From: a virus
Direction: 5' to 3' (one strand)
Length of the DNA stretch: 46,094 nt
IMG/VR virus record: IMGVR_UViG_3300034683_000017
Location: 1 to 46,094 of that record
The notes below the pieces were generated by a model that ran no database searches, was not told where the DNA came from, and was given only the letters and a program-made list of their open reading frames with translations. The number at the start of each line of letters is the position of its first letter. The first letter of the stretch is position 1. A program made the translations under genes and the position numbers. Shown here in pieces: positions 3,041 through 45,962 of this stretch.

Positions 3041-3059
3041 AAGCCCCTTACGGGGCTTT
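3041..3059. terminator. Bidirectional terminator between convergent genes
   Basis: Stem AAGCCCC/GGGGCTT with loop TTAC separates the rightward head genes from the leftward methyltransferase island. The stop codon of the leftward gene lies in the loop (3048-3050). Confidence 0.8.
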
Positions 3060-3851: not shown

Positions 3852-3871
3852 TTCAACCCTCGTATCGTGAG

Positions 3872-4420: not shown

Positions 4421-4800
4421 ATTTAATCACCATGTATCCTGGTCTGGCGGAAAGAGAAACCTTATGTCCGTATATCCACGCGGTTTTATATACGTATGTT
4501 AGCTGTGCGGTGCGCAATTTAATGTCCGAATATGTTGATTTCGTTCTCCAGTTCCATGTGAATTCATCGCCTGGCTTTGCTCTTTCAAGGGCGTCAAGGA
4601 GGATGATACGCTCATACGACCTTACCCCACGTGATCTGCGTCTCCGGGTTTTGGGCTTCCCTCGTGCCAGACTTCGACCATCTGGTTTTCCACTTTTTGT
4701 AATTCGTATCAGTCTCTGTGATGGGTGTGCGACATCTTGAGGGACACTCTCTTCTGGAACAGAATTTATTTTTTTTTAAAATATAAGCTGCAAATGACAT
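4401..4800 (-). pseudogene. Small basic protein gene needing a one-base slip at an A9 run
   Basis: The ATG at 4800 has a strong SD (AGAGAGG, 9 bases away). Read straight it gives a 62-aa ORF that leaves a protein-like frame at the nine-A run (4769-4777). Skipping one A joins MSFAAYILKK to a frame that stays open to TAA at 4401 (132 aa in all). That frame contains a basic stretch (KPKTRRRRSRGVRSYER) and an ordered-looking tail (LLDALERAKPGDEFTW, KTAWIYGHKVSLSARPGY). The corrected frame overlaps dUTPase by 20 bases. It is first in the leftward island and unrecognised. The cause may be a sequencing error, a mutation, or slippage on A9. Confidence 0.6.
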
Positions 4801-4832: not shown

Positions 4833-4860
4833 GTGTATCAGTAGCTGACGCGTTCGTCAA
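4833..4860 (-). promoter_or_regulatory. Leftward promoter with palindromic operator
   Basis: Read leftward: -35 TTGACG, about 17 bases, -10 TACACT. The -35 is half of the palindrome CTGACG-CGTT-CGTCAA. It drives the island 4800 to 3048. Coordinates may be off by one. Confidence 0.7.
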
Positions 4861-5145
4861 TACCTCATTTTACCCCAAAATACCACGGATATCGGGGTGA
4901 CGAATTTACTTTCACAATCAGCAGCTTACGCGCATAACCGAAAACCCCGTACATTTCTGCTATATTCCCTCTTCCCTCTTATTACTGTTTGTATATTGTC
5001 TATATACATTCTTTTACTATCTTACTACCTATATAATTACTATTTATTAAGGGTATAAGGGTAATAAGTAATAAGTAACAGAAAACTAAAGAGTTTTTTA
5101 TACCCCGATGACATACCCCGAATGAGTTTTAACGGGGTATGTGGC
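4855..5145. repeat. 291-bp direct repeat, copy 1 (between divergent promoters)
   Basis: It is about 95% identical and equal in length to 36494-36784. It starts at the -35 of a leftward promoter and ends about 20 bases before the -10 of a rightward promoter. Inside it are a 10-bp inverted repeat ACATACCCCG/CGGGGTATGT (5111-5142, 12-base loop), further CCCCG/CGGGG copies, and an AT-rich middle with TTACTA repeats facing AGTAA repeats. No ORF is evident. It is likely a regulatory region or replication origin. Confidence 0.85.
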
Positions 5146-5170
5146 GCTGCCGCATCCGATGTGTGATAAT
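5141..5170 (+). promoter_or_regulatory. Rightward promoter of neck/tail operon
   Basis: An extended -10 TG-T-GATAAT (5162-5170) lies 22 bases after the inverted repeat CGGGGTATGT. There is no good -35, which suggests activator dependence. The same spacing is found at the second repeat copy, before the terminase genes. Confidence 0.5.
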
Positions 5171-8168: not shown

Positions 8169-8200
8169 AAGGGGCCGATTGGCCCCTTAGTTATTTTCTT
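8169..8200. terminator. Bidirectional terminator after tube gene
   Basis: An 8-bp stem AAGGGGCC/GGCCCCTT with loop GATT is followed by a T-rich tract. The hairpin at 17142 is the same except for one loop base. Both sit where a reverse-strand unit meets the rightward operon. Confidence 0.82.
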
Positions 8201-8439
8201 TTACTCCGAATGTGAAAGTCTGCCTTATCCATCATATCTTTACGCCAGCAAACGCCCGTACCCATATACGCCGGGTCGTCACTTTCCGCATAACCAAACT
8301 CATTTTCATGATACGTGCAAATCGTGTCGGTCTGCCCGTCATAAATCTGGAACTGCTCACCCTGTGCGGCGTGGGTACTGTTGCAGTAAATTGTTGCAGC
8401 CATGATGACCGCTAACTGGATTTTAAATTTGTGAATCAT
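8191..8439 (-). CDS. Secreted small protein (moron-like)
   Basis: This 82-aa protein has a clear Sec signal: basic start MIHKFK, hydrophobic core, and likely cleavage after THA at residue 24. The mature 58-residue part has two Cys that could form a disulphide in the periplasm. Start has a strong SD (AGGAG, 8 bases). It stands alone on the reverse strand between tube and tail chaperone genes, with its own palindromic promoter and terminator, the hallmark of a moron. It might alter the cell envelope (for example superinfection exclusion), but that is inference. Confidence 0.75.
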   Translation of the reverse strand: MIHKFKIQLAVIMAATIYCNSTHAAQGEQFQIYDGQTDTICTYHENEFGYAESDDPAYMGTGVCWRKDMMDKADFHIRSKRK

Positions 8440-8469: not shown

Positions 8470-8498
8470 ACTATAGCCCGCTTTGACGCCGCCGTCAA
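8470..8498 (-). promoter_or_regulatory. Leftward promoter with perfect palindromic operator
   Basis: -35 TTGACG, 17 bases, -10 TATAGT (leftward). Operator half-sites TTGACG/CGTCAA are perfect (8483-8498). Confidence 0.85.
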
Positions 8499-8505
8499 TA
8501 ATTGA

Positions 8506-8536
8506 TTGATGATTTCGTCAAGTGTACACTGTAACG
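8506..8536 (+). promoter_or_regulatory. Rightward promoter with palindromic operator
   Basis: TTGATG-ATTT-CGTCAA at 8506-8521, with a weak -10 TGTAAC after 18 bases. It would restart the tail operon after the moron. A 13-mer TGTACACTGTAAC (8523-8535) recurs with one change upstream of the sheath gene (6569-6581). Confidence 0.5.
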
Positions 8537-12785: not shown

Positions 12786-12810
12786 AAAAAAGCCCGCCAC
12801 GGAGGGCGGG
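12783..12810 (-). terminator. Leftward intrinsic terminator
   Basis: Stem CCCGCC/GGCGGG (12793-12798 with 12805-12810). The A-run lies on its left, so the T tract follows only when read leftward. This implies a leftward transcript coming from the 12.8-13.1 kb gap. Confidence 0.75.
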
Positions 12811-13086
12811 TGAACGCTACAGAGAGATGATACAGCAGGCTGGGTAGTTCAGGTAAGGGTTGTCCCTTAACTCAACTATCTCGCTATCATTGTCACGTTT
12901 CGCAACTGTTGTTATGTTTCACAACATTACTCCAGTCACTTACGGCTTACCCGTCAGCAAGATTGGACCACCTCGCTCGATGGTTACAACAGGGAATAGC
13001 GCCTAATGGTTAACAATCATCTGGTAGCTTGCCCCGCGAAGAACGGCCACCAGCTATTCGTGCGTTCCTGTGAATGAATAATTACA
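12811..13086 (-). other. Gap with possible small leftward transcript
   Basis: No intact gene was found. The gap is bounded on the right by the palindromic promoter at 13087-13115, which also reads leftward (TTGACA, 16 bases, TAATTA), and on the left by a leftward terminator. It holds an 8-bp hairpin CTGGTAGC/GCCACCAG (13021-13053). A leftward frame without a start codon ends in KRDNDSEIVELRDNPYLNY near the terminator. It could be a structured RNA or a decayed small gene. Confidence 0.45.
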
Positions 13087-13115
13087 TTGTTTGACGTGAG
13101 TGTCAATAGTATACT
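13087..13115 (+). promoter_or_regulatory. Promoter with palindromic operator before spike gene
   Basis: -35 TTGTTT (13087), 17 bases, -10 TATACT (13110). The operator TTGACG-TGAG-TGTCAA lies at 13091-13106, inside the spacer. Leftward, TTGACA can act as -35 for the gap transcript. Confidence 0.7.
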
Positions 13116-23283: not shown

Positions 23284-23312
23284 ATACTACGTTAGTTTGA
23301 CGGGTACGTCAA
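23284..23312 (-). promoter_or_regulatory. Leftward promoter with perfect palindromic operator
   Basis: -35 TTGACG, 17 bases, -10 TAGTAT (leftward). Operator TTGACG-GGTA-CGTCAA at 23297-23312. Drives the ssDNA-binding protein and polymerase. Confidence 0.82.
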
Positions 23313-25030: not shown

Positions 25031-25059
25031 ACTATACTCCTCATTGACGAGTCCGTCAA
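25031..25059 (-). promoter_or_regulatory. Leftward promoter with perfect palindromic operator
   Basis: -35 TTGACG, 17 bases, -10 TATAGT (leftward); operator TTGACG-AGTC-CGTCAA at 25044-25059. The surrounding stretch of about 110 bases is an inverted near-copy of 32960-33080. Confidence 0.88.
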
Positions 25060-25974: not shown

Positions 25975-26003
25975 ACTTTATATCACCATGACGCATTCGT
26001 CAA
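25975..26003 (-). promoter_or_regulatory. Leftward promoter with palindromic operator
   Basis: -35 TTGACG, 17 bases, -10 TAAAGT (or TATAAA at 15). Operator ATGACG-CATT-CGTCAA at 25988-26003. Serves the 25940 gene. Confidence 0.7.
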
Positions 26004-26017
26004 CAATATTTTAAAAT

Positions 26018-26060
26018 TTGACACGGGGTGGGTGGTGCGACATAATGACGCCATCGTCAA
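26018..26060 (+). promoter_or_regulatory. Rightward early promoter with operator at the start site
   Basis: -35 TTGACA, 17 bases, -10 CATAAT. The operator ATGACG-CCAT-CGTCAA (26045-26060) overlaps the -10 and start site, unlike the other sites where it covers the -35. Confidence 0.82.
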
Positions 26061-26468: not shown

Positions 26469-28144
26469 TGCAACTGCGCCCCTATCAGTCCAGTCTTGTG
26501 ACTGGCATTAATAATTACTGGTCAACACATCCACGGGGTAAGGTACTGGCAGTGCTTGCGACAGGTGGTGGGAAGACTGTTATTTTCTCGTCTATCATCG
26601 CTGCCGAACAAGGTGCGACATGTGCCATTGCACACCGCCAGGAACTCGTCAGTCAGATGAGTCTCACGCTTGCCAAAAACGGTATCTATCACCGCATTGT
26701 CGGTTCGAATAAAACCGTGAAAAACTGCGTGAAGATTCACATGGATGAACTGGGTAAGACATTTTACGACGCCGGAAGTAAACACGCGGTTGCCAGTGTG
26801 GACACAATTATCCGGCGCGGCGAGCAACTTGCTAACTGGTTACCGTCTGTTCGTCTGTGGGTTATCGATGAGGCGCACCATGTACTTAAAGATAACAAAT
26901 GGGGTAAAGCTGTGCAGATGTTCCCCAATGCTCGCGGACTGGGGGTTACAGCTATACCGTGTCGTGCGGATGGTAACGGTCTGGGAAGTCATGCAGATGG
27001 CGTGTTCGATACCATGTTCGAAGGTGTGGCAATGGGGGAACTCATACGAGATGGGTATCTGACCGATTACAAAATATTCGCACCTCCCAGTAGTTTCTCA
27101 CGTGAACAAATTAAGGTGAGCGAGTCCACGGGGGACTTTAACCTGAACCAGATGAGGGAAGTCGTTAACGGCTCATCACTGGTGGCACATGATGAGAAAA
27201 CCATCACTGGTGATGTTGTTGCTCAATATCTGAAAATTGCCCGTGGTAAATCAGGCGTGACATTCACTGTTGATGTGGCGAGCGCTGAGGAAATCGCGGA
27301 ACAGTATAATAAAGCAGGTGTCCCGGCGGCGGCAATAAGCTGTAATACTCCCGACCTTGAACGATTCGCAGCGGTGCGAAAATTTAAAAATAAAGAGATA
27401 TTACAGTTAGTTAACTCGGAAATTCTGACTGAGGGTTTTGATTGTCCTGGTATTGAGGTTGTTTCATTTGGCCGCCCAACCGAATCATACAGTATGTATG
27501 GTCAAATGTTTGGACGCGCCCTCAGACCGTTACCAGGTAAAACCCACGCGATTATTATTGACCATGTGGGCAACGTCATGCGCCACGGTTTACCAGACGC
27601 ACCGCGTGAGTGGAGTCTTGACCGCCGGGAGCGTCGCACAGGTAAAAGTGAACCATCGACGGTGCGTGTGTGCGTCGCATGTGCAGCAGTGTATGAGCGG
27701 TTCCGTGACGCGTGTCCTGACTGTGGCGAACCTGTACCAAAACCGGCAGACCGCTCCGGACCTGTGCAAGTGGACGGCGACCTGTACGAGCTTGACCCGG
27801 ATGTACTGGCACAGATGCGTAATGAAGTTGTGGGAGCACGTGAGACGCCCGAGGCAATGCGTGACAGACTGACCGCACAACATGTACCAATGCCAGGAGT
27901 GATGAGCAATGTCAAACGTCAACGCGAGCGCCTGGAAGTATTGGAAAAACTGGACGGACTGATGGCGACTATTGCCGGTTACTGGCGACACGATGGTATG
28001 AGCGACAGTGAGATATTTCGCAAATTTTTCCTGACTTATCGTACCGACTGGTTGAGCGCACAAAGCCTGAAAAAAGATGATGCAGCAGCACTCATGGAAA
28101 AAATACAAAATGATGTTGACGGACTCGTCAAAGGTGGGTTATAG
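26468..28144 (+). CDS. SF2 DEAH-type helicase
   Basis: This 558-aa ATPase has Walker A (ATGGGKT), DEAH (VIDEAHH), motif III-like GVTAIP, and motif VI (QMFGRALRP), followed by a Zn finger (CVACAAVYERFRDACPDCG). It resembles the phage DEAD/DEAH helicases that unwind replicating or recombining DNA. SD GGGAG, 5 bases before ATG 26468. The last codons contain the palindromic promoter of the next unit. The stop is TAG, showing that TAG is a true stop in this phage. Confidence 0.88.
   Translation: MQLRPYQSSLVTGINNYWSTHPRGKVLAVLATGGGKTVIFSSIIAAEQGATCAIAHRQELVSQMSLTLAKNGIYHRIVGSNKTVKNCVKIHMDELGKTFYDAGSKHAVASVDTIIRRGEQLANWLPSVRLWVIDEAHHVLKDNKWGKAVQMFPNARGLGVTAIPCRADGNGLGSHADGVFDTMFEGVAMGELIRDGYLTDYKIFAPPSSFSREQIKVSESTGDFNLNQMREVVNGSSLVAHDEKTITGDVVAQYLKIARGKSGVTFTVDVASAEEIAEQYNKAGVPAAAISCNTPDLERFAAVRKFKNKEILQLVNSEILTEGFDCPGIEVVSFGRPTESYSMYGQMFGRALRPLPGKTHAIIIDHVGNVMRHGLPDAPREWSLDRRERRTGKSEPSTVRVCVACAAVYERFRDACPDCGEPVPKPADRSGPVQVDGDLYELDPDVLAQMRNEVVGARETPEAMRDRLTAQHVPMPGVMSNVKRQRERLEVLEKLDGLMATIAGYWRHDGMSDSEIFRKFFLTYRTDWLSAQSLKKDDAAALMEKIQNDVDGLVKGGL
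28116..28144 (+). promoter_or_regulatory. Palindromic promoter inside helicase end
   Basis: -35 TTGACG, 17 bases, -10 TTATAG. Operator TTGACG-GACT-CGTCAA (28116-28131) lies within the helicase codons. Followed by a leader with an AGTTC/GAACT hairpin. Confidence 0.82.
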
Positions 28145-29069: not shown

Positions 29070-29857
29070 TGGATATTAAAACAGAGAGTACATGGTTAAT
29101 GTTTGGCGATTGTCTGGAGCGTATGAAAGAGATCCCGGATGGTAGCGTGGATATGGTGTTAACATCCCCGCCTTATGACGATTTAAGAACTTATAATCAG
29201 TCATCTTCGTGGAAACAAAACACATGGGAGAGCACGCTGTGTGAAATAAAGCGCTTATTGAAAGTCGGAGGTGTATGTGTATGGGTAGTTAACGATGCCA
29301 CAAAAAACGGTAGCGAAACGGGTACATCTTTCAGACAAGCACTCTTTGCAATGTCTATAGGTTTAAAACTACACGATACAATGATATATCAGAAATCTGA
29401 CTACATGCCCTTGACGCATAGCAGGTATGAACAATCTTTTGAGTATATGTTCGTATTTGTTAAAGGTAAATTAACAACTTTCAACGGTCTGAAAGATAAA
29501 AAGAACGTTGGTTTTGGACGTAAAATAACAGGAACATGGAGAAGTAGAAATGGTGAAACAATATCAAAAAGCGGTGCAAACATTAAAGAAGTCAGTGAAT
29601 TTGGTTTAAGACCCAACATATGGGAATATTGTACAGCTAAAGGAAAAAAAGAACATTCACATCCAGCTGTTTTTCCTTTGGATCTAGCACGCGACCACAT
29701 CATATCATGGTCGAATGAAGGAGAGACAGTTTTAGATATGTTTATGGGCAGTGGTACCACCGGTGTAGCGTGTAAGAACACGAATCGCAAATTCATTGGT
29801 ATTGAAATGGACCCGACTTACTACGGTATCGCATGTGGGAGAATTTTAGCTAGTTGA
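29069..29857 (+). CDS. DNA methyltransferase, SPPY (N4/N6) type
   Basis: This is a 262-aa protein from the GTG at 29069, which overlaps the previous TAG and has a GGGGGAG SD. Motif IV is TSPPYDD and motif I DMFMGSGTTG, in the beta-class order (IV before I). It should add a methyl group to adenine N6 or cytosine N4. The gene is visibly richer in A/T than its neighbours, a sign of separate origin. With two other methyltransferases it may protect phage DNA from restriction. Confidence 0.88.
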   Translation: MDIKTESTWLMFGDCLERMKEIPDGSVDMVLTSPPYDDLRTYNQSSSWKQNTWESTLCEIKRLLKVGGVCVWVVNDATKNGSETGTSFRQALFAMSIGLKLHDTMIYQKSDYMPLTHSRYEQSFEYMFVFVKGKLTTFNGLKDKKNVGFGRKITGTWRSRNGETISKSGANIKEVSEFGLRPNIWEYCTAKGKKEHSHPAVFPLDLARDHIISWSNEGETVLDMFMGSGTTGVACKNTNRKFIGIEMDPTYYGIACGRILAS

Positions 29858-29882
29858 CCACTCCGTCAACCTGTGCCATACT
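29854..29882 (+). promoter_or_regulatory. Palindromic promoter of TetR-like regulator
   Basis: -35 TTGACC, 17 bases, -10 CATACT. Operator TTGACC-ACTC-CGTCAA (29854-29869). Suggests autoregulation of the TetR-like protein. Confidence 0.75.
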
Positions 29883-29911: not shown

Positions 29912-30190
29912 ATGAGCAAAGAACATATTTTAGAAGTAGCTTACACGATGGCGCAGCGCGACGGCTTTGGTGCTCTTACCCGCGATGGTGTTGCGGCTGA
30001 AGCTGGCGTGGCGATGGGTTCGGTCAACCATCACTGGGTCAGGATGTCCGCACTTCGTGAAGCAGTGATGCAACGGGCAGTCGAAGAAGAAAACCTTGAA
30101 TTAATCGGACAAGGTATCGCGCTGGGTGACACTATCGCTAACTCTGCACCACTGGAGCTACGCACTCGCGCGCTGACCACCCTGCTTTAA
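29912..30190 (+). CDS. Short TetR-like DNA-binding protein
   Basis: This is a 92-aa protein from the ATG at 29912 (the longer frame starts inside the promoter). Residues 5-50 have the TetR helix-turn-helix look: ILEVAYTMAQRDGFGALTRD, then VAAEAGVAMGSVNHHW and a following helix. The remaining 40 residues are far too short for the usual ligand-binding domain, so it is a minimal TetR-type regulator. Its own promoter carries the palindrome found genome-wide, so it is the best candidate for binding it. That link is inference. Confidence 0.72.
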   Translation: MSKEHILEVAYTMAQRDGFGALTRDGVAAEAGVAMGSVNHHWVRMSALREAVMQRAVEEENLELIGQGIALGDTIANSAPLELRTRALTTLL

Positions 30191-32600: not shown

Positions 32601-32629
32601 TTGACGAACCCGTCAATGGGGAGTATAGT
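32601..32629 (+). promoter_or_regulatory. Rightward promoter with perfect palindromic operator
   Basis: -35 TTGACG, 17 bases, -10 TATAGT; operator TTGACG-AACC-CGTCAA (32601-32616). Followed by the shared leader with AGTTC/GAACT hairpin and GAGGAAATACAAA. Confidence 0.88.
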
Positions 32630-33017: not shown

Positions 33018-33046
33018 TTGACGGACTCGTCAATGATGAGTATAGT
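33018..33046 (+). promoter_or_regulatory. Rightward promoter with perfect palindromic operator
   Basis: -35 TTGACG, 17 bases, -10 TATAGT; operator TTGACG-GACT-CGTCAA (33018-33033). Starts the small-gene operon 33081-35592. Confidence 0.88.
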
Positions 33047-34450: not shown

Positions 34451-35592
34451 TGACTATTCTGACGGAAGAGAAATTACTGGCCGACGTGGCTGCAGGAATG
34501 AGTGGTTGCGCTATTGCGAAAAAGTACGGTATGACCCCTGGCAACATTAACCGCCGCATCAAACGTCTCGGTGCGCGCGGTTTGGGTCACGGTGGTAATG
34601 TATCCCGCTTTGTACCGGACGGTTACAAGGTGAAAGGTACATCGTCACTGGTGAAGGAGGACGGGACTGTAGCGCTACAATGGGTTAAAACCGATGTGGA
34701 CGCCGAGCGTCAGTTGAAAATGATGCAGGAAGCGATTGCGGCGCTCACAGAGTGTTTATCCCCGCTAGAGGAAATTAATTTAATATCCCGTGATGAGGAT
34801 AGCACTCTCTTGAACATGTACACAGTAACAGATGCGCACATTGGCATGTTGGCATGTGAAGAAGAGGGTGGAGACGATTATGATACCAAAATTGCGGAGC
34901 GGATTATATCGTCGTGGTTCAAATCAGCGACAATATTGGCACCCAACGCAACAGAGTGTCTCATTAACCTTCAGGGGGATTTCCTGCACTTCGACGGCCT
35001 GAAGGCGGTTACACCAACATCCGGACATATCCTCGACTCTGATACACGTTTCTTCAAAGTGGTCCAGACCGCTATCCGTGTAATTAAGCGAGCCGTGAAT
35101 ATGTGTCTGGAGAAGCATCGGAAAGTGACGCTACTAATCGCCACGGGCAACCACGACCTCGCGTCCGCCGTATGGTTGCGAGAGATGTTTAAAGAGGTGT
35201 ATAGCAATAATCCCCGCGTGGCCATTGTAGACGAACAGAGTCCCTACTATGCAATCGAATTCGGTAAAGTAATGATTGGCGTACATCACGGGCACTGTTC
35301 CAGGATGGAAAAGCTGGACGCAGTATTTGCCAGTAAGTTCCGGGAGATTTACGGTCGTACTAAGTTTGGCTACCTGCACATGGGGCATTATCATCATCGG
35401 AAGGTAGCAGAGAGCAACATGTTCATTACTGAGATGCACCAAACTCTGGCAGCCAAAGACGAGTATTCAAGTAACGGAGGTTATGACTCAGGAAGAAGTG
35501 CCACAGTCATAACATATCATCGAGACTACGGCGAGATTGGTAGAATATCAATCCCCGTAGAGATGATTAAGGACCAGTACGGACTGGAATAG
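34450..35592 (+). CDS. Metallophosphoesterase with N-terminal helix-turn-helix
   Basis: A 380-aa protein. Residues 1-45 are a resolvase-like HTH (GCAIAKKYGMTPGNINRRIK). The rest is a calcineurin-like phosphoesterase: TDAHIG, LINLQGDFLH, IATGNHD, VHHGHC and HMGHYHH hold the metal ligands. DNA binding plus a phosphoesterase suggests a nuclease or DNA-end processing role. The terminator follows immediately. Confidence 0.82.
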   Translation: MTILTEEKLLADVAAGMSGCAIAKKYGMTPGNINRRIKRLGARGLGHGGNVSRFVPDGYKVKGTSSLVKEDGTVALQWVKTDVDAERQLKMMQEAIAALTECLSPLEEINLISRDEDSTLLNMYTVTDAHIGMLACEEEGGDDYDTKIAERIISSWFKSATILAPNATECLINLQGDFLHFDGLKAVTPTSGHILDSDTRFFKVVQTAIRVIKRAVNMCLEKHRKVTLLIATGNHDLASAVWLREMFKEVYSNNPRVAIVDEQSPYYAIEFGKVMIGVHHGHCSRMEKLDAVFASKFREIYGRTKFGYLHMGHYHHRKVAESNMFITEMHQTLAAKDEYSSNGGYDSGRSATVITYHRDYGEIGRISIPVEMIKDQYGLE

Positions 35593-35606
35593 TATCAGGT
35601 AAATAA

Positions 35607-35633
35607 AAAGCCCGCATTTAGCGGGCTTTGTTT
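35607..35633. terminator. Bidirectional terminator
   Basis: A 9-bp perfect stem AAAGCCCGC/GCGGGCTTT with loop ATTTA, T-rich on both sides. It separates convergent units. Confidence 0.88.
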
Positions 35634-35635
35634 TG

Positions 35636-35842
35636 CTACTGTATAGTACTAACCCATGTATCATTATTAAACGTAACATTTACTACAGCCACTGTTTGGG
35701 ATGGGTTAATAACTGTTCTGATATTTTCAAAAGTAAAATGAATCATATTGTCAATGTGTCGGATGTTTTTGACAAACATTTCCATACCCATAATATTAAA
35801 CTTATCGCCAGGTTTAATATCACTTGTTTTAACCAGTCCCAT
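35636..35842 (-). CDS. Small beta-rich hypothetical protein
   Basis: This 68-aa protein looks like an SH3-like barrel: IKPGDKFNIMGMEMFVKNI then MIHFTFENIRTVINPSQTV. The same pattern occurs in the 43349-43546 protein. Second gene of the leftward unit after the zinc-ribbon gene. Unknown function. Confidence 0.6.
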   Translation of the reverse strand: MGLVKTSDIKPGDKFNIMGMEMFVKNIRHIDNMIHFTFENIRTVINPSQTVAVVNVTFNNDTWVSTIQ

Positions 35843-36470: not shown

Positions 36471-36499
36471 ATTATCACAGGGGTTATTTGCCGCGTCAA
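36471..36499 (-). promoter_or_regulatory. Leftward promoter with operator half-site
   Basis: -35 TTGACG, 17 bases, -10 GATAAT (leftward). Only the -35 half of the palindrome is kept (TTATTT-GCCG-CGTCAA), so it may escape the shared control. Confidence 0.75.
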
Positions 36500-36784
36500 T
36501 ACCTCATTTTACCCCAAAATACCACGGATATCGGGGTGACGAATTTACTTTCACAATCAGCAGCTTACGCGCATAACCGAAAACCCCGTACATTTTCACT
36601 ATATTCTCCCTTCCCTCTTATTACCGTTTGTATGTTGTATATATACATCCTTTTACTATCTTACTACCTATATAATTACTATTTTATAAGGGTATTAAGG
36701 GTATAAGTAATAAGTAACAGAAAACTAAATAGTTTTTTATACCCCGATGACATACCCCGAACGAGTTTTAACGGGGTATGTGGC
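36494..36784. repeat. 291-bp direct repeat, copy 2
   Basis: Near-copy of 4855-5145, same length and orientation, between the leftward zinc-ribbon promoter and the rightward terminase promoter. Inverted repeat ACATACCCCG/CGGGGTATGT at 36750-36781. Confidence 0.87.
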
Positions 36785-36809
36785 AATGACGGGGCAGTCA
36801 TGGTAGAAT
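36781..36809 (+). promoter_or_regulatory. Rightward promoter of packaging operon
   Basis: Extended -10 TG-G-TAGAAT (36801-36809), 22 bases after the inverted repeat, as at copy 1. No clear -35. Confidence 0.5.
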
Positions 36810-38723: not shown

Positions 38724-40118
38724 ATGGGTAAGGCTGCTAAAACAAACCTTCACACCACCGACGGGCTGGTAAACGTCGTGTCCGGCCTCGGAACATGGAA
38801 AGCAAAACGCTCTCACAACGCGTTCCAGTATGCTGCGCTGTCCAACTGGCAACAACTTGATGCAGCTTATCAGACGAACTGGCTCGCCCGTCAAATTGTG
38901 GAAATACCCGCCGAAGATATGTGCCGTGAGTGGCGCACTATCAAGTGCAAGGAAGCCGATGACATCCGCATCGAAGAAGACCGTCTGATGATACCTGTCA
39001 GCGTGCAGGAGGCTGTCACATGGGCGCGTCTGTACGGTGGCGGTGGTATTCTCATGCTGACTGGTCAGGACTTGTCAAAGCCGCTCGACGTGCGCCGTAT
39101 TCGTAAGGGTGATTTGAAGCGTTGCATCGTGTTTGACCGTCACGACATGTCACCGCTCACTATGAACACCTGGGACATTCTCGCACCAAACTACATGATG
39201 CCGGAGTATTACACCATTACCGGCGGTGGGCAGCAAATTCACTGGACCCATTTCGCGCGCTTTAATGGTAAGCGTTTGCCGCGTCGCCAGATGATTCAGA
39301 CTCAGGGATGGGGTGACAGTGAGTTACGTGTATGCCTCGACGACATCATGGACATGGTTGCGTCGAAGGACGGTATCGCAGAACTGATGCAGGAAGCTAA
39401 CGTTGACGTGGTCAAACGTGAAGGACTGTCCGATGAGTTAGCCAGCGACCAGGACGAAGCAATTGTGTCGCGTTACACACTGTTCAGTCAGATGAAATCA
39501 CTGGTGCAGATGGCCCTGCTGGACGGTGATGAATCGTATGAACGTAAGACGCTCGACCTGGGCGGCGTTGCACCAGTGCTTGAGACGTTCATGACGTGGA
39601 TTAGTGGCGCAGCTGACATTCCTGTTACGCGCCTGTTCGGTACTTCAGCCAAAGGTTTAAACGCCACGGGTGAAGGGGACATGAACAACTACAATAACTC
39701 TATCCGCGCCAAACAGTTGACACAGATTGATCCGGGATTGCGCCAGCTTGATGAGGTGCTGGTGCGTAGCGCACTGGGTTACTGGCCTGACGACTTTAAC
39801 TATGTGTGGAATCCACTTGCGCAGCCTAACGAACTACAGATTGCCCAGGCTGCCAAAATCCGCGCAGATAAGGACATGGTGTATCTTGCCGAAGGTGTTA
39901 TTACCGTGTCACAGGTGCAACGTAATCTGGAATCCGCCGAAGAATATCAGTTTGAAGACGGTCAGATTGAAGAGCAGTCAGAAACTGAAAAAGAGATGTC
40001 CACTGTGCAACGCCCGGAGCCTGACGGGCAGACCACGGACGCATTCTGGATACGCTACAATGGATACGCAGCTGACGGACTGTCGCACGATGAGATAATG
40101 GCAAAACTGGCCCAGTAA
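38724..40118 (+). CDS. Portal protein (DUF1073 type)
   Basis: This 464-aa protein follows the terminase and matches DUF1073 portals: TNWLARQIVEIPAEDMCREW near 50, WARLYGGGGILML near 93, and ADIPVTRLFGTSAKGLNATG near 295. It forms the 12-mer gate for DNA. A perfect 10-bp terminator stem overlaps its end. Confidence 0.9.
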   Translation: MGKAAKTNLHTTDGLVNVVSGLGTWKAKRSHNAFQYAALSNWQQLDAAYQTNWLARQIVEIPAEDMCREWRTIKCKEADDIRIEEDRLMIPVSVQEAVTWARLYGGGGILMLTGQDLSKPLDVRRIRKGDLKRCIVFDRHDMSPLTMNTWDILAPNYMMPEYYTITGGGQQIHWTHFARFNGKRLPRRQMIQTQGWGDSELRVCLDDIMDMVASKDGIAELMQEANVDVVKREGLSDELASDQDEAIVSRYTLFSQMKSLVQMALLDGDESYERKTLDLGGVAPVLETFMTWISGAADIPVTRLFGTSAKGLNATGEGDMNNYNNSIRAKQLTQIDPGLRQLDEVLVRSALGYWPDDFNYVWNPLAQPNELQIAQAAKIRADKDMVYLAEGVITVSQVQRNLESAEEYQFEDGQIEEQSETEKEMSTVQRPEPDGQTTDAFWIRYNGYAADGLSHDEIMAKLAQ

Positions 40119-40133
40119 CGGGCCAGTTTGGTT
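40104..40133. terminator. Strong hairpin terminator after portal
   Basis: A 10-bp perfect stem AAACTGGCCC/GGGCCAGTTT with loop AGTAAC, lying between convergent portal and methyltransferase genes. Confidence 0.8.
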
Positions 40134-40835
40134 TATTTCCTCAGTTTAAAAAGTTTTTCAATCGATGGTTTCGAACCGCCTGACACACCGTTTGCACTCA
40201 GGCTACTTTTAGTGTGAACCTCCAGAATGCACTCAAAATCAGAAGGTGCGGTATATTCACTAACAAAAACATCGCTGCTTTTCGATATTTGTCGCGCCCA
40301 TTCCCAGAATTTATCATTGTCAAAACCATCTTTGTACCCTGTTGTTCCCGCGTAGGGTGGGTCGCAATATACGACTGAGCCTTCCGGGATGGCTAACTCA
40401 TCATATCTCAAACTAGTAAACACCACCCCGTGTAGATTTTTTTGCCTGCTTAACCGCACTCCGTATGGATTCGGACTGGTAGTCTCTGATGGTCCCATTC
40501 TTTGTTTCAACCACGTCCGCGAAGCCGCCGAACCACTTGCCGGAGTATGAACATGCAATTCCGGCCCACCCTATCAGGTAATCCGGACCGTTGAGTGACT
40601 TCAATTCGAGATATTGTTGCTTGTTTATCTTTTCAGGTACCCAACCCAATGTCAGTGCCTTAAACATTTCAATTACATATTTATTGGAATCATTGGCAAG
40701 CCTATAACGAGCATCTCGAACACCGTCTATCATGTTCATCCCGCCCGCGAAAGGTTCTATGTATATACTATCTGTAGTGGGTATCTTATTTAAAATATCA
40801 AATTTAAATCTCGATTTACTCCCCATGTATTTCAT
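40133..40835 (-). pseudogene. Dam-like adenine methyltransferase split at an A7 run
   Basis: Two frames together make one adenine methyltransferase. The first (40835 to 40413) starts MKYMGSKSRFKFDILNKIP and has EPFAGGMNM. The second continues from KNLHGVVFTSLRYDELAIPE to the catalytic VVYCDPPYAGTTGY and ends at 40133. They join if one base is dropped in the seven-A run at 40437-40443, giving about 233 aa. Methylation of adenine would protect against restriction. The slip may be an assembly error, a mutation or recoding. Confidence 0.75.
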
Positions 40836-41347
40836 TTCCGATACCCCGCATCATACAGAATCTTAGCCGCACCGATTGACACACCGGACAGCCGAACCAT
40901 CTCATCAATCGCACGTTCCGCTTCGGTGCGGAGTGGGCGGAAACAACGCGACCCAAAACATGCAGACAGTCCAGCACCTTTATCGTCCCAGTAAACGACC
41001 GCCACATTATTTCCGTCGCTTGTGGTTTTATGTGCGATAACCTCAACAATTTCGCCTTCTGCCGGAAGGATACCATAGAAGTCAGTCTCTATGTCGTATG
41101 TACCAATGGTGAATTCCACATCGATACCAACCGGCGGCAAACCTGTACCATCCCAGCTGTATTGTTCGCGCGTGACGATTGCTTCCCCTAACTCACGAGT
41201 GGTTAAGTCACTGTAATCCACCCTGAACCCATTATCATCCCAAAAGTGAACGCCAGGGATGAAGCAGTAAGAGGTAGCTTTTGATGCACCATCCGGCCAA
41301 CCGCCACGCTTTGGTAATTCCTGACGTAATAGTTCAAGTAATGTCAT
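40832..41347 (-). CDS. Conserved phage hypothetical protein
   Basis: This is a 171-aa protein. It carries the pattern of a common enterophage protein of unknown role: PPVGIDVEFTIGTYD, EGEIVEVIAHKTTSDG, then SRCFRPLRTEAERAIDEM, ending ILYDAGYRK. First gene of the leftward island with the Dam-like gene, overlapping it by ATGA. Confidence 0.7.
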   Translation of the reverse strand: MTLLELLRQELPKRGGWPDGASKATSYCFIPGVHFWDDNGFRVDYSDLTTRELGEAIVTREQYSWDGTGLPPVGIDVEFTIGTYDIETDFYGILPAEGEIVEVIAHKTTSDGNNVAVVYWDDKGAGLSACFGSRCFRPLRTEAERAIDEMVRLSGVSIGAAKILYDAGYRK

Positions 41348-41384
41348 CTCTCTTCTCCTGTGATATTATTTAACTAACACATAC

Positions 41385-41413
41385 ACTCTATACCATACCG
41401 ACGGAGCCGTCAA
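41385..41413 (-). promoter_or_regulatory. Leftward promoter; operator doubles as SD of the rightward gene
   Basis: -35 TTGACG, 17 bases, -10 TAGAGT (leftward). Operator CCGACG-GAGC-CGTCAA (41398-41413). On the other strand the GGAG in its centre lies 9 bases before ATG 41416 and is that gene's SD. Confidence 0.75.
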
Positions 41414-41415
41414 AC

Positions 41416-43152
41416 ATGTCACGACAAACAGAGCTGAATTACTATCGCCAGCTGAAACAGATTGCCCGGCTTGTTCGTGAGGATGTGGACGCCAACATCG
41501 TTCCGCTGGTGAAACAGCTTGCGCCGGAGTACACCGCCGACGGCTGGAGTGATACCATCACCTCGGCGATTAACCAGTTGCTCACACGGTGGCTAGGTGC
41601 GTTTGCCCGTCGTCAGGCTGAAACCATCGCGTCACAGTTTGTACAGACTGCTGCAAAGGATAACGCCCGTACATTCGCCATCAATCTGTACGGCGGTGAT
41701 ACGCAGTTGCAGGAATATCTCAGCGCTGCATCGTATCAGAATGCTAAACTAATTCAGTCCATTCCGGCTCAGTATCTGGAGCAGGTGCAGAACATTGTCA
41801 TGAGCAACATGCGTAACGGTATGCGCCCCAGTTACATTGAGGAGGCACTCGTTAAGCAGTTTGGCATCACGGAACGTCGCGCTAAATTAATTGCCAGGGA
41901 TCAAACCAGTAAGATACAGGGTGATATGAACCGTATCCGCCAGACGAACAGCGGTATTGAGTATTTCAAATGGGTAACATCACAGGATGAGCGGGTACGT
42001 CACAGTCACGTTGAAGTTGCGAAGCGCGATGTGGGATTCGGTGAAGGCGTATTCCGCTGGGATGATTTGCCGGTTGTCGATGGTGTTCCTACTTTTCCCG
42101 GTCAGCCGATAAATTGTTTCCCGGGCACCTCACCATTGAACGTCTTCTACGGTGCTGAAAAAGCGTTTAGGCATTGGTTTAGCGGCGAACTTACCGTTCT
42201 GGTCACGGAATCTGGTGAACGCATCGAATGTACACCTAATCACCCGGTGCTTACCGATAAAGGTTTCGTCGCTGCTCACTTGTTGAATGTTGGTGATAAT
42301 ATCGTCTACGTTCCGCAACAGACTTTCAACATCTCTGAAAAAGACGCCCACAGTTCGAATATTGTATTCAGCGAGTTTTTTAATGCGGCTCAGTTGATAG
42401 GGGTCAGTGGTAAACCTGTTCGGGCACTTGGTGGTGAGTTCCACGGCGACATTTCCGCAAACGAGGAAATCGAGGTTATAGACTTCAACTGGGTGTTGCC
42501 CAATGAATTCTATTCCACGCTGGGTAAGAATTTCTTTGAACTCTTTTTCACCAGGGCCGAAGAAGTGTTCAGTTTGGTTGATGCACCGTGTGACAGCAAT
42601 CTTACATCTGTGGTCAAAGGTTTGACTTTTGCCCCTGACAGCGTCGTGAGCAGCGCGTGTAAGTTGTTGTCGTTCGTGAGCGCTGGTTTTACTCATCCGA
42701 ATGAACATCGCCTCACTGTGGTTGGCTTGCTTTATTCCAGACTCGTTGAGAATGCGAGTGATGACGTTGCGAGAAGTGTTCAATTCTTCAGCAATTGCTT
42801 TGACACTCATGCCAGCGTCGATGCGCGTCACAATCTGTTCAAGCGGTATATTTTGGCGATTGTGCGCAGTGCGTTTGGTTTTGGGGATTTCCAGACCCCG
42901 GGCGCGAATTCGTTTACTGAGTGCATCGGCACCAACGCCGAGAATTTCACCAACGGCTTTGACACTGTGACCATCAAGCATCAATTGGTACGCATTATCG
43001 ATAAGACTTTCAGGGAATTTAGCGGCCATGTGCATAATCTCCAAATGGAAAGAGGTTTATTTGTATCGCATAATTTTGCCGTAAGTAATTGCCGCTGTGT
43101 GGCGAGACCAGTTACAGCGGCAGCAGTGGAGCGGTATAAGGCTAAGAATTAG
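41416..43152 (+). CDS. Minor head (morphogenesis) protein with intein
   Basis: This is a 578-aa precursor. The exteins (residues 1-233 and the last 20) give a 253-aa SPP1 gp7/Mu F-like head protein: ERRAKLIARDQTSKIQGDMN, RVRHSHVEV and the junction PGQPIN+CRCVARPV. The intein spans 42115-43089. The protein links portal and capsid or scaffold. The insertion lies at the most conserved point of the family, as usual for inteins. SD GGAG is within the operator just upstream. Confidence 0.9.
   Translation: MSRQTELNYYRQLKQIARLVREDVDANIVPLVKQLAPEYTADGWSDTITSAINQLLTRWLGAFARRQAETIASQFVQTAAKDNARTFAINLYGGDTQLQEYLSAASYQNAKLIQSIPAQYLEQVQNIVMSNMRNGMRPSYIEEALVKQFGITERRAKLIARDQTSKIQGDMNRIRQTNSGIEYFKWVTSQDERVRHSHVEVAKRDVGFGEGVFRWDDLPVVDGVPTFPGQPINCFPGTSPLNVFYGAEKAFRHWFSGELTVLVTESGERIECTPNHPVLTDKGFVAAHLLNVGDNIVYVPQQTFNISEKDAHSSNIVFSEFFNAAQLIGVSGKPVRALGGEFHGDISANEEIEVIDFNWVLPNEFYSTLGKNFFELFFTRAEEVFSLVDAPCDSNLTSVVKGLTFAPDSVVSSACKLLSFVSAGFTHPNEHRLTVVGLLYSRLVENASDDVARSVQFFSNCFDTHASVDARHNLFKRYILAIVRSAFGFGDFQTPGANSFTECIGTNAENFTNGFDTVTIKHQLVRIIDKTFREFSGHVHNLQMERGLFVSHNFAVSNCRCVARPVTAAAVERYKAKN
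42115..43089 (+). mobile_element. Intein (325 aa), protein-splicing element
   Basis: It starts with Cys1 (CFPGTSPLNVFYGAEKAFRH) and has block B ECTPNHPVLTDKGF. The end is block F/G: HVHNLQMERGLFVSHNFAVSN, followed by Cys of the C-extein. The penultimate residue is Ser, not the usual His. Where inteins normally carry a same-strand endonuclease domain, this one has about 200 residues without recognisable motifs. Those codons are the reverse complement of an endonuclease-like gene on the other strand. Confidence 0.85.
42130..43029 (-). CDS. Antisense homing-endonuclease-like gene nested in intein
   Basis: This is a 299-aa protein from ATG 43029 (SD GGAG, 9 bases). Two HTH repeats lie near the start (SVKAVGEILGVGADALSKRI and SVKAIAEELNTSRNVITRIL). 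A PD-(D/E)XK/Vsr-like core follows: EFKEILTQRGIEFIGQHPV, YNLDFLV, NVAVELTT, KLAEYNIRTVGVFF. Layout resembles HTH-Vsr-type phage homing endonucleases. Codons are in exact register with the intein on the other strand, so TTA, CTA and TCA are never used in its 18 Leu and 15 Ser codons. The last 60 residues lie opposite the intein splicing domain. Confidence 0.75.
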   Translation of the reverse strand: MAAKFPESLIDNAYQLMLDGHSVKAVGEILGVGADALSKRIRARGLEIPKTKRTAHNRQNIPLEQIVTRIDAGMSVKAIAEELNTSRNVITRILNESGIKQANHSEAMFIRMSKTSAHERQQLTRAAHDAVRGKSQTFDHRCKIAVTRCINQTEHFFGPGEKEFKEILTQRGIEFIGQHPVEVYNLDFLVCGNVAVELTTKCPNRFTTDPYQLSRIKKLAEYNIRTVGVFFRDVESLLRNVDDIITNIQQVSSDETFIGKHRVIRCTFDAFTRFRDQNGKFAAKPMPKRFFSTVEDVQW

Positions 43153-43160
43153 TCATCCGT

Positions 43161-43349
43161 TCATTTCCCACGTCCTCTGAACACCCGATTTAACACCTCC
43201 CACAGTCCGGCAAATACAGCAACCGGGCCAAATGCAACAATTGCCCATGCCTGCCACTTGTACTCCATTTCCAGAGGCAGCGTGGCGATTGTTGATATAA
43301 TTACCCACCCCGCAAGCAGGATAATCAGTACACCTTTAATAATACCCAT
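43161..43349 (-). CDS. Small membrane protein (two spans)
   Basis: This 62-aa protein has membrane segments near 5-22 (KGVLIILLAGWVIISTIA) and 33-50 (AWAIVAFGPVAVFAGLW) and a basic end. It is last in a leftward island of small genes and overlaps the gene before it by one base. Function unknown. Confidence 0.68.
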   Translation of the reverse strand: MGIIKGVLIILLAGWVIISTIATLPLEMEYKWQAWAIVAFGPVAVFAGLWEVLNRVFRGRGK

Positions 43350-43546
43350 TAGCCCACCACCTTATTAACAAGTTGATTCATCTCGACCCACCGTTGAGAT
43401 ACCGAGCCATCCTCTTTGGTTGCGGTGAAGGTCACAATATCCTTGAGGAAGTTCATTTTGAAGTTTGTCACGGTGATAACACCGTCCACATCGATAAATT
43501 TGTCATTGTTGCGGAGCATTACCGCTTTGATAGGTTTACAATTCAT
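43349..43546 (-). CDS. Small beta-rich hypothetical protein
   Basis: This 65-aa protein has LRNNDKFIDVDGVITVTNF and DIVTFTATKEDGSVSQRW. It resembles the 35636-35842 protein in pattern (DKF, gap, V-x-N, gap, FT), so the two may be distant paralogues. Starts on ATGA overlap. Confidence 0.62.
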   Translation of the reverse strand: MNCKPIKAVMLRNNDKFIDVDGVITVTNFKMNFLKDIVTFTATKEDGSVSQRWVEMNQLVNKVVG

Positions 43547-43695
43547 TTTCCATACGCCTCACGTAATGCAGCGTTAGCGAGCGCCCAATCTTCATGCTTG
43601 CGTGCAAGCTGTTGTGCGACCTTTAACAGTTCACGGTCAATGATGCGTGCTTGTGACACGGGACGGTCGTAACCTGGAAGTAATGTGTTATTCAT
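43543..43695 (-). CDS. Small hypothetical protein
   Basis: A 50-aa ORF, MNNTLLPGYDRPVSQARIID then helical, ending ANAALREAYGK. SD is in the AGAGAGGGT leader. It is the first gene after the palindromic promoter 43725-43754 and overlaps the next by ATGA. Unrecognised. Confidence 0.65.
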   Translation of the reverse strand: MNNTLLPGYDRPVSQARIIDRELLKVAQQLARKHEDWALANAALREAYGK

Positions 43696-43724
43696 GGTCT
43701 ACCCTCTCTGTTGTTGATAAACTG

Positions 43725-43754
43725 AGTATACGTCATCCCTGACGAACTCGTCAA
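43725..43754 (-). promoter_or_regulatory. Leftward promoter with palindromic operator
   Basis: -35 TTGACG, 18 bases, -10 TATACT (leftward); operator CTGACG-AACT-CGTCAA (43739-43754). It overlaps the stop of the 18-aa peptide upstream. Confidence 0.75.
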
Positions 43755-43807
43755 CATAAATATTTGACCCAAATCACAACACCGACACAAAGCAGGATGT
43801 ACTCCAT
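43751..43807 (-). CDS. Very small membrane peptide (18 aa)
   Basis: MEYILLCVGVVIWVKYLC is almost wholly hydrophobic. It has a strong SD (AGGAG, 7 bases from ATG) overlapping the previous gene's stop, so it is a believable translated peptide. It would sit in the inner membrane. Function unknown. Confidence 0.5.
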   Translation of the reverse strand: MEYILLCVGVVIWVKYLC

Positions 43808-43811
43808 AGTG

Positions 43812-44018
43812 TCACTCCTGCGGCGGTTCGGGTAATGGTTGCCAGTGTGTGACTTCTTCACTCGTGAAAGAGTGTTCCCCGTAGAAATTACAATAGGAAA
43901 ACGTTTCGTCATCCACATCGAAATGAAATTCCCCTGGCTTTTCCCATCCAGCACCGTAACCAATGACGCACCCATCTTCCGTCGGCATCCGCTCACTACA
44001 CTTAATCCAGTCTGCCAT
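43812..44018 (-). CDS. DUF551-like small protein
   Basis: This 68-aa protein starts MADWIKCSERMPTEDGCVIG and ends THWQPLPEPP, the hallmarks of the DUF551 family common in enterobacterial phages and prophages. Role unknown. It overlaps the preceding gene. Confidence 0.85.
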   Translation of the reverse strand: MADWIKCSERMPTEDGCVIGYGAGWEKPGEFHFDVDDETFSYCNFYGEHSFTSEEVTHWQPLPEPPQE

Positions 44019-44196
44019 ACAATGTCCCCACTCGTTTCAAATCGCGCTGTGCGTGGCAGCTGTAAGTACCATCGTCCCACTGTACATAGTAGCGCGGTGG
44101 CTCATCGGTCATTACGTTTGCGACAACACCCGTAACGACACCATTGGGGAACAACTTCACAAGTGTCCCAGTTGGGTAGCGTGGGATAGTTGTCAT
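44002..44196 (-). CDS. Small SH3-like hypothetical protein
   Basis: A 64-aa protein from ATG 44196 (SD within GAGGGTGAG). Sequence YPTGTLVKLFPNGVVTGVV then PRYYVQWDDGTYSCHAQRDL resembles small beta-barrel proteins of phages. It overlaps the DUF551 gene by 17 bases. Confidence 0.6.
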   Translation of the reverse strand: MTTIPRYPTGTLVKLFPNGVVTGVVANVMTDEPPRYYVQWDDGTYSCHAQRDLKRVGTLYGRLD

Positions 44197-44198
44197 AA

Positions 44199-44327
44199 TC
44201 ACTCACCCTCGTACAACGGTTTCAGTTGATACCCGAACATAACGGCGTTGCTATGTGCCACACTGCCCGCGCGGACCAGATATGTCGTACCGCGGTTAGT
44301 TGTTACTTCATATGCGTATGGTTTCAT
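44199..44327 (-). CDS. Small hypothetical protein (KPYAYEV type)
   Basis: A 42-aa ORF starting MKPYAYEVTTNRGTTYLVRA, a start often seen in tiny enterophage proteins. SD GGAGGGT 5 bases before ATG. It overlaps the previous gene's end. Function unknown. Confidence 0.65.
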   Translation of the reverse strand: MKPYAYEVTTNRGTTYLVRAGSVAHSNAVMFGYQLKPLYEGE

Positions 44328-44791
44328 TTGTCACCCTCCGACAGTTCAATTGCACGTTTGGCGCTCGCCAGGATGTCTTTTAAATCTTCACTTGCGTCCT
44401 TGTGTCCACGCTGGCCGACCGCTAAAGCCTTTTTAATCAGGTGTTGAAGTGCAGGACATGTGACATTGAACGCTTTGAGAACGTCATAAACGTCAATGGT
44501 GATACCCTTGCAAGGGCGATTGTATTTGCTGTCATTAATTGGTACAGGTTCACGTTGGGCGATAATTGCTATGTTGGAAGTACCGTTGACATCTCTTTCA
44601 TCAAGCGTATTGCAATTATCAAGACTTGACACACTGGGCCACCAGATTCTGTCCCCCACACTTTGTGAACCATTACAGTTTTCCTCATATCCGATGTTGC
44701 CGGTTCCCAACTGTCTTATCACTTGCTTACACCAATCCGGCGCACCTTCGAAGTCCTTTTCACTACCGATAATGTAGTTCCACGTGGTCAT
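44324..44791 (-). CDS. Conserved phage hypothetical protein
   Basis: A 155-aa protein with two parts: an N-terminal Gly/Asn-rich region and a C-terminal conserved helical domain (GITIDVYDVLKAFNVTCPA, LAVGQRGHKDASEDLKDI). I recall this C-terminal pattern from many enterobacterial phage proteins of unknown role. First gene of the leftward island, SD AAGGAG. Confidence 0.72.
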   Translation of the reverse strand: MTTWNYIIGSEKDFEGAPDWCKQVIRQLGTGNIGYEENCNGSQSVGDRIWWPSVSSLDNCNTLDERDVNGTSNIAIIAQREPVPINDSKYNRPCKGITIDVYDVLKAFNVTCPALQHLIKKALAVGQRGHKDASEDLKDILASAKRAIELSEGDK

Positions 44792-44837: not shown

Positions 44838-44866
44838 ACTATGGCATACTCTGACGGACTCGTCAA
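44838..44866 (-). promoter_or_regulatory. Leftward promoter; operator abuts ATG of protease gene
   Basis: -35 TTGACG, 17 bases, -10 CATAGT (leftward). Operator CTGACG-GACT-CGTCAA (44851-44866) ends one base before ATG 44868 on the other strand. Confidence 0.75.
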
Positions 44867-44867
44867 C

Positions 44868-45962
44868 ATGCAAATCACCGTAACACACAATGACCGTAAA
44901 AGTTTCGCACTGAATTCTCAACGTGTTTACACGGATGAGGGATTTTTGCGTGTGCCGGGTAAAGCCGCTCGTACTGGTATCCAGGAATATCTCGCTTCGG
45001 AACTGGGACTGAAAGACCGCGCACCGAACGACATTATCCGTGTGTACCGTCCCGCCGAAGAAGTGTTTAACGATGCGTCACTTCAGAGCTATCTCGGTGC
45101 GGATGTCACGAATAACCATCCTCCCACACTCGTTAATGCTTCCACGTACCGTAATACTTCCGTTGGCGTTGTAACGAGTATCGGTCGTCAGGACGGCGAT
45201 TTTGTCATTGTGGATATGGTTATTAAGGATAAAGACGCGATTAAGGCTGTTGAAACCGGCAAGTGTGAGTTGTCAGCCGGTTACACGGCGGTGTATGATG
45301 ACACACCAGGGACAACGCCGGAAGGTGAACTGTATGACTTCCGACAGACCCAGATTAAAATTAACCACGTTGCAATTGTTGACCGTGCTCGTGCGGGTGC
45401 AATGGCGCGTATCTTCGATAATATGGAGAAAAAACCCATGTATCAAATCACCACTGACACCGGGGTAAAAGTCGATGTGGCGGATGCTGCGGTGGTAGAC
45501 GCGTTCAAACGCTTGGAACAGCGTGTCAGTGACGCCGAAGCCGCCAAAGAAACCGTACAGGCTCAACTCGACGCAGCAATGGAACAGGTTGCTGACCTGA
45601 CCACCAAATGCAGCGACGAAGCCCTGAAAGCACGCGTAGAAGCAATTGCACGTGTTACCACTTCAGCGCGTAAAGTTGCTGGCGATGAATTCACCTGTGA
45701 CAGCGTGGACCCGGTTGCAATCAAACGTGCCGCCCTTGCTGTTAAACGTCCATCTGTTGACTGGGCTGAAAAATCTGCCGCCTATGTCGAAGCCGCTTTC
45801 GATATGGCCGTGGAAGAACCGGTGAAACCTGTGGTAGACTCACAGCTTGAGCAACTGGCTAAAGATGGCGCTAAAGACATCAAACAGTCGGTAGCCGACG
45901 CAAAACCTGTACTGTCCCGCGCACAAGAAGCACTGCTGCGTCAGACTGGCAAACTTAAATAA
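44868..45962 (+). CDS. Prohead protease / scaffold fusion (DUF2213 type)
   Basis: This is a 364-aa protein from ATG 44868, the usual family start (MQITVTHNDRKSFALNSQRV). The N-terminal half is DUF2213-like protease: TNNHPPTLV, GKCELSAGYTAVYD and NHVAIVDRARAG. The C-terminal half is a charged helical scaffold (FKRLEQRVSDAEAAKETVQA). An internal ATG at 45438 with its own SD probably gives scaffold alone. Followed by decoration and capsid genes. Confidence 0.82.
   Translation: MQITVTHNDRKSFALNSQRVYTDEGFLRVPGKAARTGIQEYLASELGLKDRAPNDIIRVYRPAEEVFNDASLQSYLGADVTNNHPPTLVNASTYRNTSVGVVTSIGRQDGDFVIVDMVIKDKDAIKAVETGKCELSAGYTAVYDDTPGTTPEGELYDFRQTQIKINHVAIVDRARAGAMARIFDNMEKKPMYQITTDTGVKVDVADAAVVDAFKRLEQRVSDAEAAKETVQAQLDAAMEQVADLTTKCSDEALKARVEAIARVTTSARKVAGDEFTCDSVDPVAIKRAALAVKRPSVDWAEKSAAYVEAAFDMAVEEPVKPVVDSQLEQLAKDGAKDIKQSVADAKPVLSRAQEALLRQTGKLK
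45438..45962 (+). CDS. Probable internal-start scaffold protein
   Basis: In-frame ATG 45438 with GGAG 9 bases upstream, at the protease/scaffold boundary. It would give 174 aa (MYQITTDTGVKVDVADAA at the start), a lambda C/Nu3-type arrangement. Expression is inferred. Confidence 0.5.
   Translation: MYQITTDTGVKVDVADAAVVDAFKRLEQRVSDAEAAKETVQAQLDAAMEQVADLTTKCSDEALKARVEAIARVTTSARKVAGDEFTCDSVDPVAIKRAALAVKRPSVDWAEKSAAYVEAAFDMAVEEPVKPVVDSQLEQLAKDGAKDIKQSVADAKPVLSRAQEALLRQTGKLK

Follow-up and report, generated by a model that had tools for sequence, protein, structure and literature searches.

Reverse-strand islands in the structural operon of a Klebsiella-type myovirus as a probable outlying portion of an early regulon under a small TetR-type protein

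Introduction

How are genes that read leftward accommodated, and controlled, within a structural operon that reads rightward? The question is raised by a 46,094-base virus record (hereafter the window, meaning the whole stretch of DNA analysed) of a Klebsiella-type myovirus near Jedunavirus. An initial annotation had described leftward units at five places in the structural operon and interpreted them as an ordered system of morons, controlled like early genes while embedded among late ones. Three elements of the account given below go beyond that description: a likely repressor gene (29912-30190), the apparent replacement of this regulator by CRP in Vibrio relatives, and the probable RNA-gene nature of the unit at 12.8-13.1 kb.

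The closest relatives of the window are RCIP0054 and SBP (~93% DNA identity). Its two ends have 127 identical bases in common, as expected of a complete, circularly assembled genome, and no tRNA genes were found in the 46,094 bases. For the comparison of relatives, 80 viral contigs and 21 named phages were anchored on their portal homologues. Note that, in all comparisons, these relatives are related by descent and do not constitute independent samples.

Results and Discussion

Leftward units in the structural operon

All five leftward units are present (3048-4800, 8191-8439, 12.8-13.1 kb, 40133-41347 and 43161-44791), and each has its own promoter. Island A, delimited from the ORF list, occupies 40133-41347 on the reverse strand between the portal and head-morphogenesis genes. 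It encodes a 171-aa protein (40832-41347) and a D12-type DNA methylase (Pfam MethyltransfD12, PHROG 56), the latter split over two overlapping frames (40133-40558 and 40413-40835) and hence broken, frameshifted or misassembled. Island B (43161-44791, reverse strand), between the head and protease genes, holds seven small proteins of 42 to 155 aa. Island C (3048-4800, reverse strand) comprises a C5 DNA methylase (3048-3851), a dUTPase (3872-4420) and a 62-aa protein (4612-4800), and island D (8191-8439, reverse strand) encodes an 82-aa protein with a signal-peptide-like N-terminus. Taken over all islands, C5 and D12 methyltransferases, the dUTPase, the signal-peptide-like protein and many proteins of 42-70 aa match the contents listed by the initial annotation. 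The fifth unit, previously given as possible, is likewise leftward and has both promoter and terminator, with no ORF; we return to it below. Antisense effects between the strands, which that annotation had raised, may occur on grounds of geometry.

Four of the five units have a terminator-like hairpin at the 3' end (40104-40129, 3041-3058, 8169-8188 and 12793-12810), in line with the earlier statement that a terminator is usually present; none was found at the 3' end of the 43.2-44.8 kb island. The hairpin at 40104-40129, situated at the convergent junction of the portal gene and island A, is conserved in relatives. A terminator at every island end can nevertheless be rejected as a general rule, strong hairpins being found at 19/56 portal/head and 2/47 head/protease junctions (random windows: 2.4%).

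Island genes are patchy and structural genes conserved. The D12 methylase is found in none of 19 relatives and the C5 methylase in one of 19, most structural genes being near universal. The islands as such are not invariant either: in island-free relatives the structural genes are almost contiguous. Variable gene content among relatives is what the moron interpretation had anticipated, and this part of it stands. However, some island genes are core (a 65-aa and a 50-aa gene are present in 14/14 members of the closest group), and, in contrast to independent morons, the slots pass down as one package with the operator and the probable repressor.

A palindrome shared by island and early promoters

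The promoter palindrome is TTGACG-N4-CGTCAA, located in sigma-70 promoters. Exact 5-bp half sites occur 11 times in the window against an expectation of 0.11, and matches with up to three mismatches 52 times against 27.8 expected, a number reached in none of 100 shuffles. Of 172 exact sites in 18 genomes, 151 (88%) supply a -35 hexamer that has a -10 element at 16-18 nt, as compared to 9.3% of random positions, and the spacing profile peaks sharply at 17 nt. Another 14 sites (8%) have their centre at +1 of a promoter of the type TTGACA-17-CATAAT or CACAAT, which makes up the rightward side of a divergent early switch; the remaining six are without a recognised promoter. Such placement, over the -35 element and spacer or over the start point, befits a repressor and not an activator.

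As the initial annotation had proposed, a palindromic promoter stands upstream of each leftward unit, amounting to six reverse-strand sites (4860, 8498, 13106, 41413, 43754 and 44866). At 4.9 kb, the operator of island C (4845-4860, reverse strand) forms part of a TTGACG-17-TACACT promoter. Two palindromes lie at 8.5 kb: the first (8483-8498, reverse strand) is the -35 element of the leftward island D promoter, and the second (8506-8521) lies in the spacer between the -35 and -10 elements of what may be a rightward promoter, TTGATT-17-TACACT. The site at 13.1 kb (13091-13106) is common to the leftward promoter of the fifth unit (TTGACA-17-AATTAT) and to what may be the promoter of the baseplate spike gene, which reads rightward (TTGTTT-17-TATACT). 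The island A operator at 41.4 kb (41398-41413, reverse strand) has two mismatches and a -10 element, TAGAGT, at 17 nt. Island B has two palindromic promoters, one internal at 43.7 kb (43739-43754, reverse strand; TTGACG-18-TATACT) and one upstream at 44.9 kb (44851-44866, reverse strand; TTGACG-17-CATAGT), the latter 2 nt from the next rightward ATG.

At two of these places (41398-41418 and 44851-44870) the island operator stops 2-3 nt short of the start codon at which the following rightward structural gene begins, and the palindrome thus covers the ribosome-binding region of that gene. In most Jedunavirus slots the palindrome lies 13-23 nt ahead of the next rightward start codon.

The same palindrome recurs among the early genes, at 23.3, 25.1, 26.0 (twice), 28.1, 29.9, 32.6 and 33.0 kb. 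Leftward early genes, including that for the ssDNA-binding protein, have palindromic operator/promoters at 23297-23312 and 25044-25059 (both reverse strand), and rightward early genes at 28116-28131, 32601-32616 and 33018-33033 (all forward strand). The pair at 26.0 kb belongs to the divergent early switch, with a palindromic promoter on its leftward side (25988-26003, reverse strand) and, on its rightward side, a site centred at +1 of TTGACA-17-CATAAT (26045-26060, forward strand). Because early promoters bear the same palindrome, the islands can be placed in the early regulon, and the earlier suggestion that they are controlled like early genes fits this promoter and operator type, common to islands and early replication genes. 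The palindrome is found in 54 of 120 island slots but at only 3 of 154 of the same junctions where these are island-free, and in none of 291 portal interiors. Among other divergent lineages, a search for alternative over-represented palindromes gave nothing clear.

A candidate repressor

Which protein might read this palindrome? The one protein found that fits the role of regulator is a 92-aa, single-domain TetR-type protein encoded on the forward strand at 29912-30190 (Pfam TetR_N, 30.5 bits against a cut-off of 24). It has PDB profile matches, and its predicted model (pLDDT 94.6) has structural matches across the TetR family, with VIA Z scores of 11.4 to AmvR and 9.1 to the TetR-operator complex 1qpi. 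The model consists of the DNA-binding helices plus short extra helices and is without the C-terminal ligand-binding and dimerisation domain of TetR. Its promoter carries a conserved variant of the operator, TTGACC-N4-CGTCAA (29854-29869, forward strand), with a -10 element, CATACT, at 17 nt. A palindrome is present in the gene's own promoter in 18/18 genomes and for 13/13 further homologues; the half site is usually TTGACC, with TTGACA in Edwardsiella phages and TTGACG in the genome L165. Even the homologue in Iodobacter phage PhiPLPE, which is 31% identical, has an altered site, ATGACGCATACGGCAA, directly upstream. A scan of PhiPLPE for exact halves revealed no over-represented palindrome; its promoters carry the variant TTGACG-N4-CGGCAA.

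Protein, palindrome and islands also travel together. The 92-aa protein is present in all 13 island-bearing viral records and in none of 16 island-free relatives, and exact palindromes number 9-15 in 10 of the 13 island-bearing records as opposed to 0-1 in island-free ones. Three divergent island-bearing records that have the repressor contain just 4, 1 and 0 exact palindromes. We conclude that the 92-aa protein is likely a repressor that binds the palindrome, including the one in its own promoter. The literature found on two Jedunavirus phages mentions no TetR protein, promoter or operator, and another Jedunavirus description gives the 92-aa ORF merely as a 'transcriptional regulator'.

Promoter geometry, palindrome recurrence, the own-promoter site, the patchiness of island content and the way in which protein, palindrome and islands are distributed together can all be read directly from sequence; from them we infer palindrome binding, repression, its timing and a late switch. 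We consider it probable that the reverse-strand islands constitute an outlying portion of the early regulon, shut together with the early genes by the 92-aa protein acting at the palindrome. Soon after infection, host RNA polymerase with sigma-70 would transcribe islands and early genes alike, from promoters whose -35 hexamer is one half of TTGACG-N4-CGTCAA. The 92-aa protein, itself an early product, would then bind the palindrome at ~14 promoters and block polymerase. Its own site, slightly mismatched, is perhaps weaker, which would delay self-shut-off. Islands and early genes would be silenced together, and head-on leftward transcription would be cleared from the rightward structural operon ahead of late expression. 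If so, the shared operator suggests how opposite-strand accessory genes persist in a structural operon: they could be silenced before late transcription. It would also provide a testable rule of gene control for widely isolated Klebsiella phages, a group for which the papers found describe neither promoter nor repressor.

Alternative regulators and the Vibrio relatives

In a different scenario, a host regulator would bind the palindrome, and the TetR-like protein of the phage would have another job. In its favour, relatives in Vibrio seem to rely on a host factor at the equivalent positions. The portal of two Vibrio phages is ~57% identical to that of the window, and reverse-strand islands occupy their terL/portal, portal/head, head/protease, tail-tube and other junctions. 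A search for repressor homologues in these two genomes found none. Over-represented instead is TGTGA-N6-TCACA, the CRP consensus, and 13/17 and 13/16 of the sites, respectively, sit at -41.5 relative to the start defined by the -10 element (background 4%), which is the class II activator position; no phage-encoded Crp domain was found in these relatives. Vibrio islands appear to be under activation by host CRP, and Klebsiella-group islands probably under phage repression. With the repressor absent and CRP sites at the corresponding junctions, the island architecture seems to have swapped its regulator. The two Vibrio genomes are related and amount to roughly one observation. The comparison looks like a natural experiment, pitting phage repressor against host CRP activation on one architecture. 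For the Klebsiella group itself, however, we regard a host regulator as unlikely: from record to record the palindrome goes with the phage protein, in whose own promoter it is present every time, and hosts extend across those of Klebsiella, Pantoea, Edwardsiella and Iodobacter phages.

Could the 92-aa protein be an activator, or a regulator of the lysis or immunity type, that holds island promoters on or off depending on the multiplicity of infection, instead of an early-to-late switch? Dispersed operators do resemble the immunity systems of temperate phages, and a site in the protein's own promoter permits feedback. Yet sites on the -35 element or at +1 are ill-suited to activation, and a search for an integrase (PF00589) gave no match in the six island-bearing phages tested. 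It is among the island-free relatives that PF00589 is matched, in 11 of 15, and our labelling of these relatives as temperate is based on those matches. We therefore hold this possibility to be quite improbable. Least credible is a view of the palindrome as no more than a conserved promoter box, multiplied by copying, whose second half is a leftover and which no regulator reads. The copies at 32.6 and 33.0 kb among the early genes are indeed alike over 73 nt. Yet a promoter can do without a second half site, a site centred at +1 is no promoter element, and other copies differ in both flanks and N4.

Comparison with known systems

The proposed repression by the 92-aa protein would place it close to the TetR family, with which it shares the TetR_N helix-turn-helix and would share a palindromic operator over promoters that include its own. 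It differs in being just 92 aa long, with no ligand-binding or dimerisation domain, and in coming from a virulent phage with ~14 operators over the genome. Mycobacteriophage L5 stoperators and the repressor sites of SPbeta are short operators, repeated and bound by one phage repressor, and the window seems to follow the same plan of one short operator repeated genome-wide. Here, however, no integrase or lysogeny was found (in the six island-bearing phages), the sites lie within promoters, and the proposed role is shut-off in one infection. Lambdoid morons are extra genes with their own promoter, and often a terminator, that lie between structural genes and vary among relatives. The islands resemble them in all these respects but share an operator with early genes, occupy fixed slots and include some core genes. 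Finally, phage T1 encodes Pir, a regulator of several phage promoters and of its own, and cAMP-CRP acts on the T1 dam, recE and pir promoters as a repressor (PMC6737242). The candidate repressor of the window would likewise act on several phage promoters and its own; in contrast to the repression exerted by CRP in T1, the CRP sites of the Vibrio relatives occupy the class II activator position.

The unit at 12.8-13.1 kb

The fifth unit (12793-13079, reverse strand) appears to be a leftward gene of another kind. Protein coding can be ruled out, there being stops in all three sense frames. It runs from a promoter at 13106-13078 to a perfect intrinsic terminator at 12810-12793, is conserved in position in Jedunavirus with a length of ~290-585 nt, and folds better than shuffled sequence (z -3.1 in the window, -4.1 in SBP). 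An Rfam 15 covariance search of the 12.8-13.1 kb RNA gave no match at E up to 1.

Individual modules can be followed beyond this locus. At least 119 stretches of viral contigs contain module M3 (~75 nt). Of its 14 pairs, 8 display compensatory change on both sides, helices 2 and 3 being the informative ones; helix 1 gives no evidence because the set was gathered via an exact, and hence invariant, 23-nt core. An Rfam search of M3 in seven other loci yielded no match. Module M2 is a constant frame, ACAACAGGTAAG...CTTTCCGTTGT, around differing cargo. It was seen in 62 distinct contexts, 40 of them with a recognised closing half, and in 36 of these 40 all five stem positions are paired. Its cargo includes hairpins that resemble the tRNA T-arm and, in one case (L356, 7921-7986), begins with a hammerhead-like core (Rfam 24.7 bits, E 7e-4, curated cut-off 34). 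Among Jedunavirus genomes, the arms M2 and M4 come in two states, short or cargo-filled, and some of this cargo is common to unrelated phages such as phiKDA1, EC1-UPM and SopranoGao.

The unit appears to be a structured non-coding RNA that ends in a terminator and is assembled from exchangeable modules, some of which also occur in unrelated phages and prophages. More tentatively, and somewhat less likely than not, it may be an early-expressed modular RNA gene whose arms exchange such folded modules, one of them hammerhead-like, and which is under the repressor of the protein islands; that its modules act as decoys against host RNA-targeting defences is speculation. If true, this would be the RNA counterpart of an accessory gene cassette and, were the modular RNA confirmed, a new class of mobile phage RNA. 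A literature search, which covered few subscription papers, found nothing that matches it. ROOL and GOLLD, which phages and prophages encode, are large, structured, non-coding RNAs of unknown function (PMC12286853); the RNA of the window would fall into the same broad class but has no Rfam match, consists of exchangeable modules and lies between baseplate genes, not near tRNAs.

Additional observations

In Escherichia phage EC1-UPM (L183, 126-2089), ~2 kb without annotated genes contain an M2 module, several tRNA T-arm-like segments and a sub-threshold match to permuted tmRNA. Within the window, sub-threshold Rfam Trp_leader matches on both strands at 35532-35696 are probably due to chance at a hairpin region. 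The head-morphogenesis protein carries an in-frame insert of ~320 aa (42118-43086) that is absent from SBP, ends SHNFAVSNC and has a weak Pfam Intein_splicing match (E 5e-5, below cut-off); it is probably an intein. Finally, a 298-nt AT-rich segment occurs in two copies (4855-5152 and 36494-36791, 93% alike) that lie upstream of the modules for tail (neck) and terminase. The pair is present in all Jedunavirus genomes checked and is a candidate late promoter/leader or replication element.
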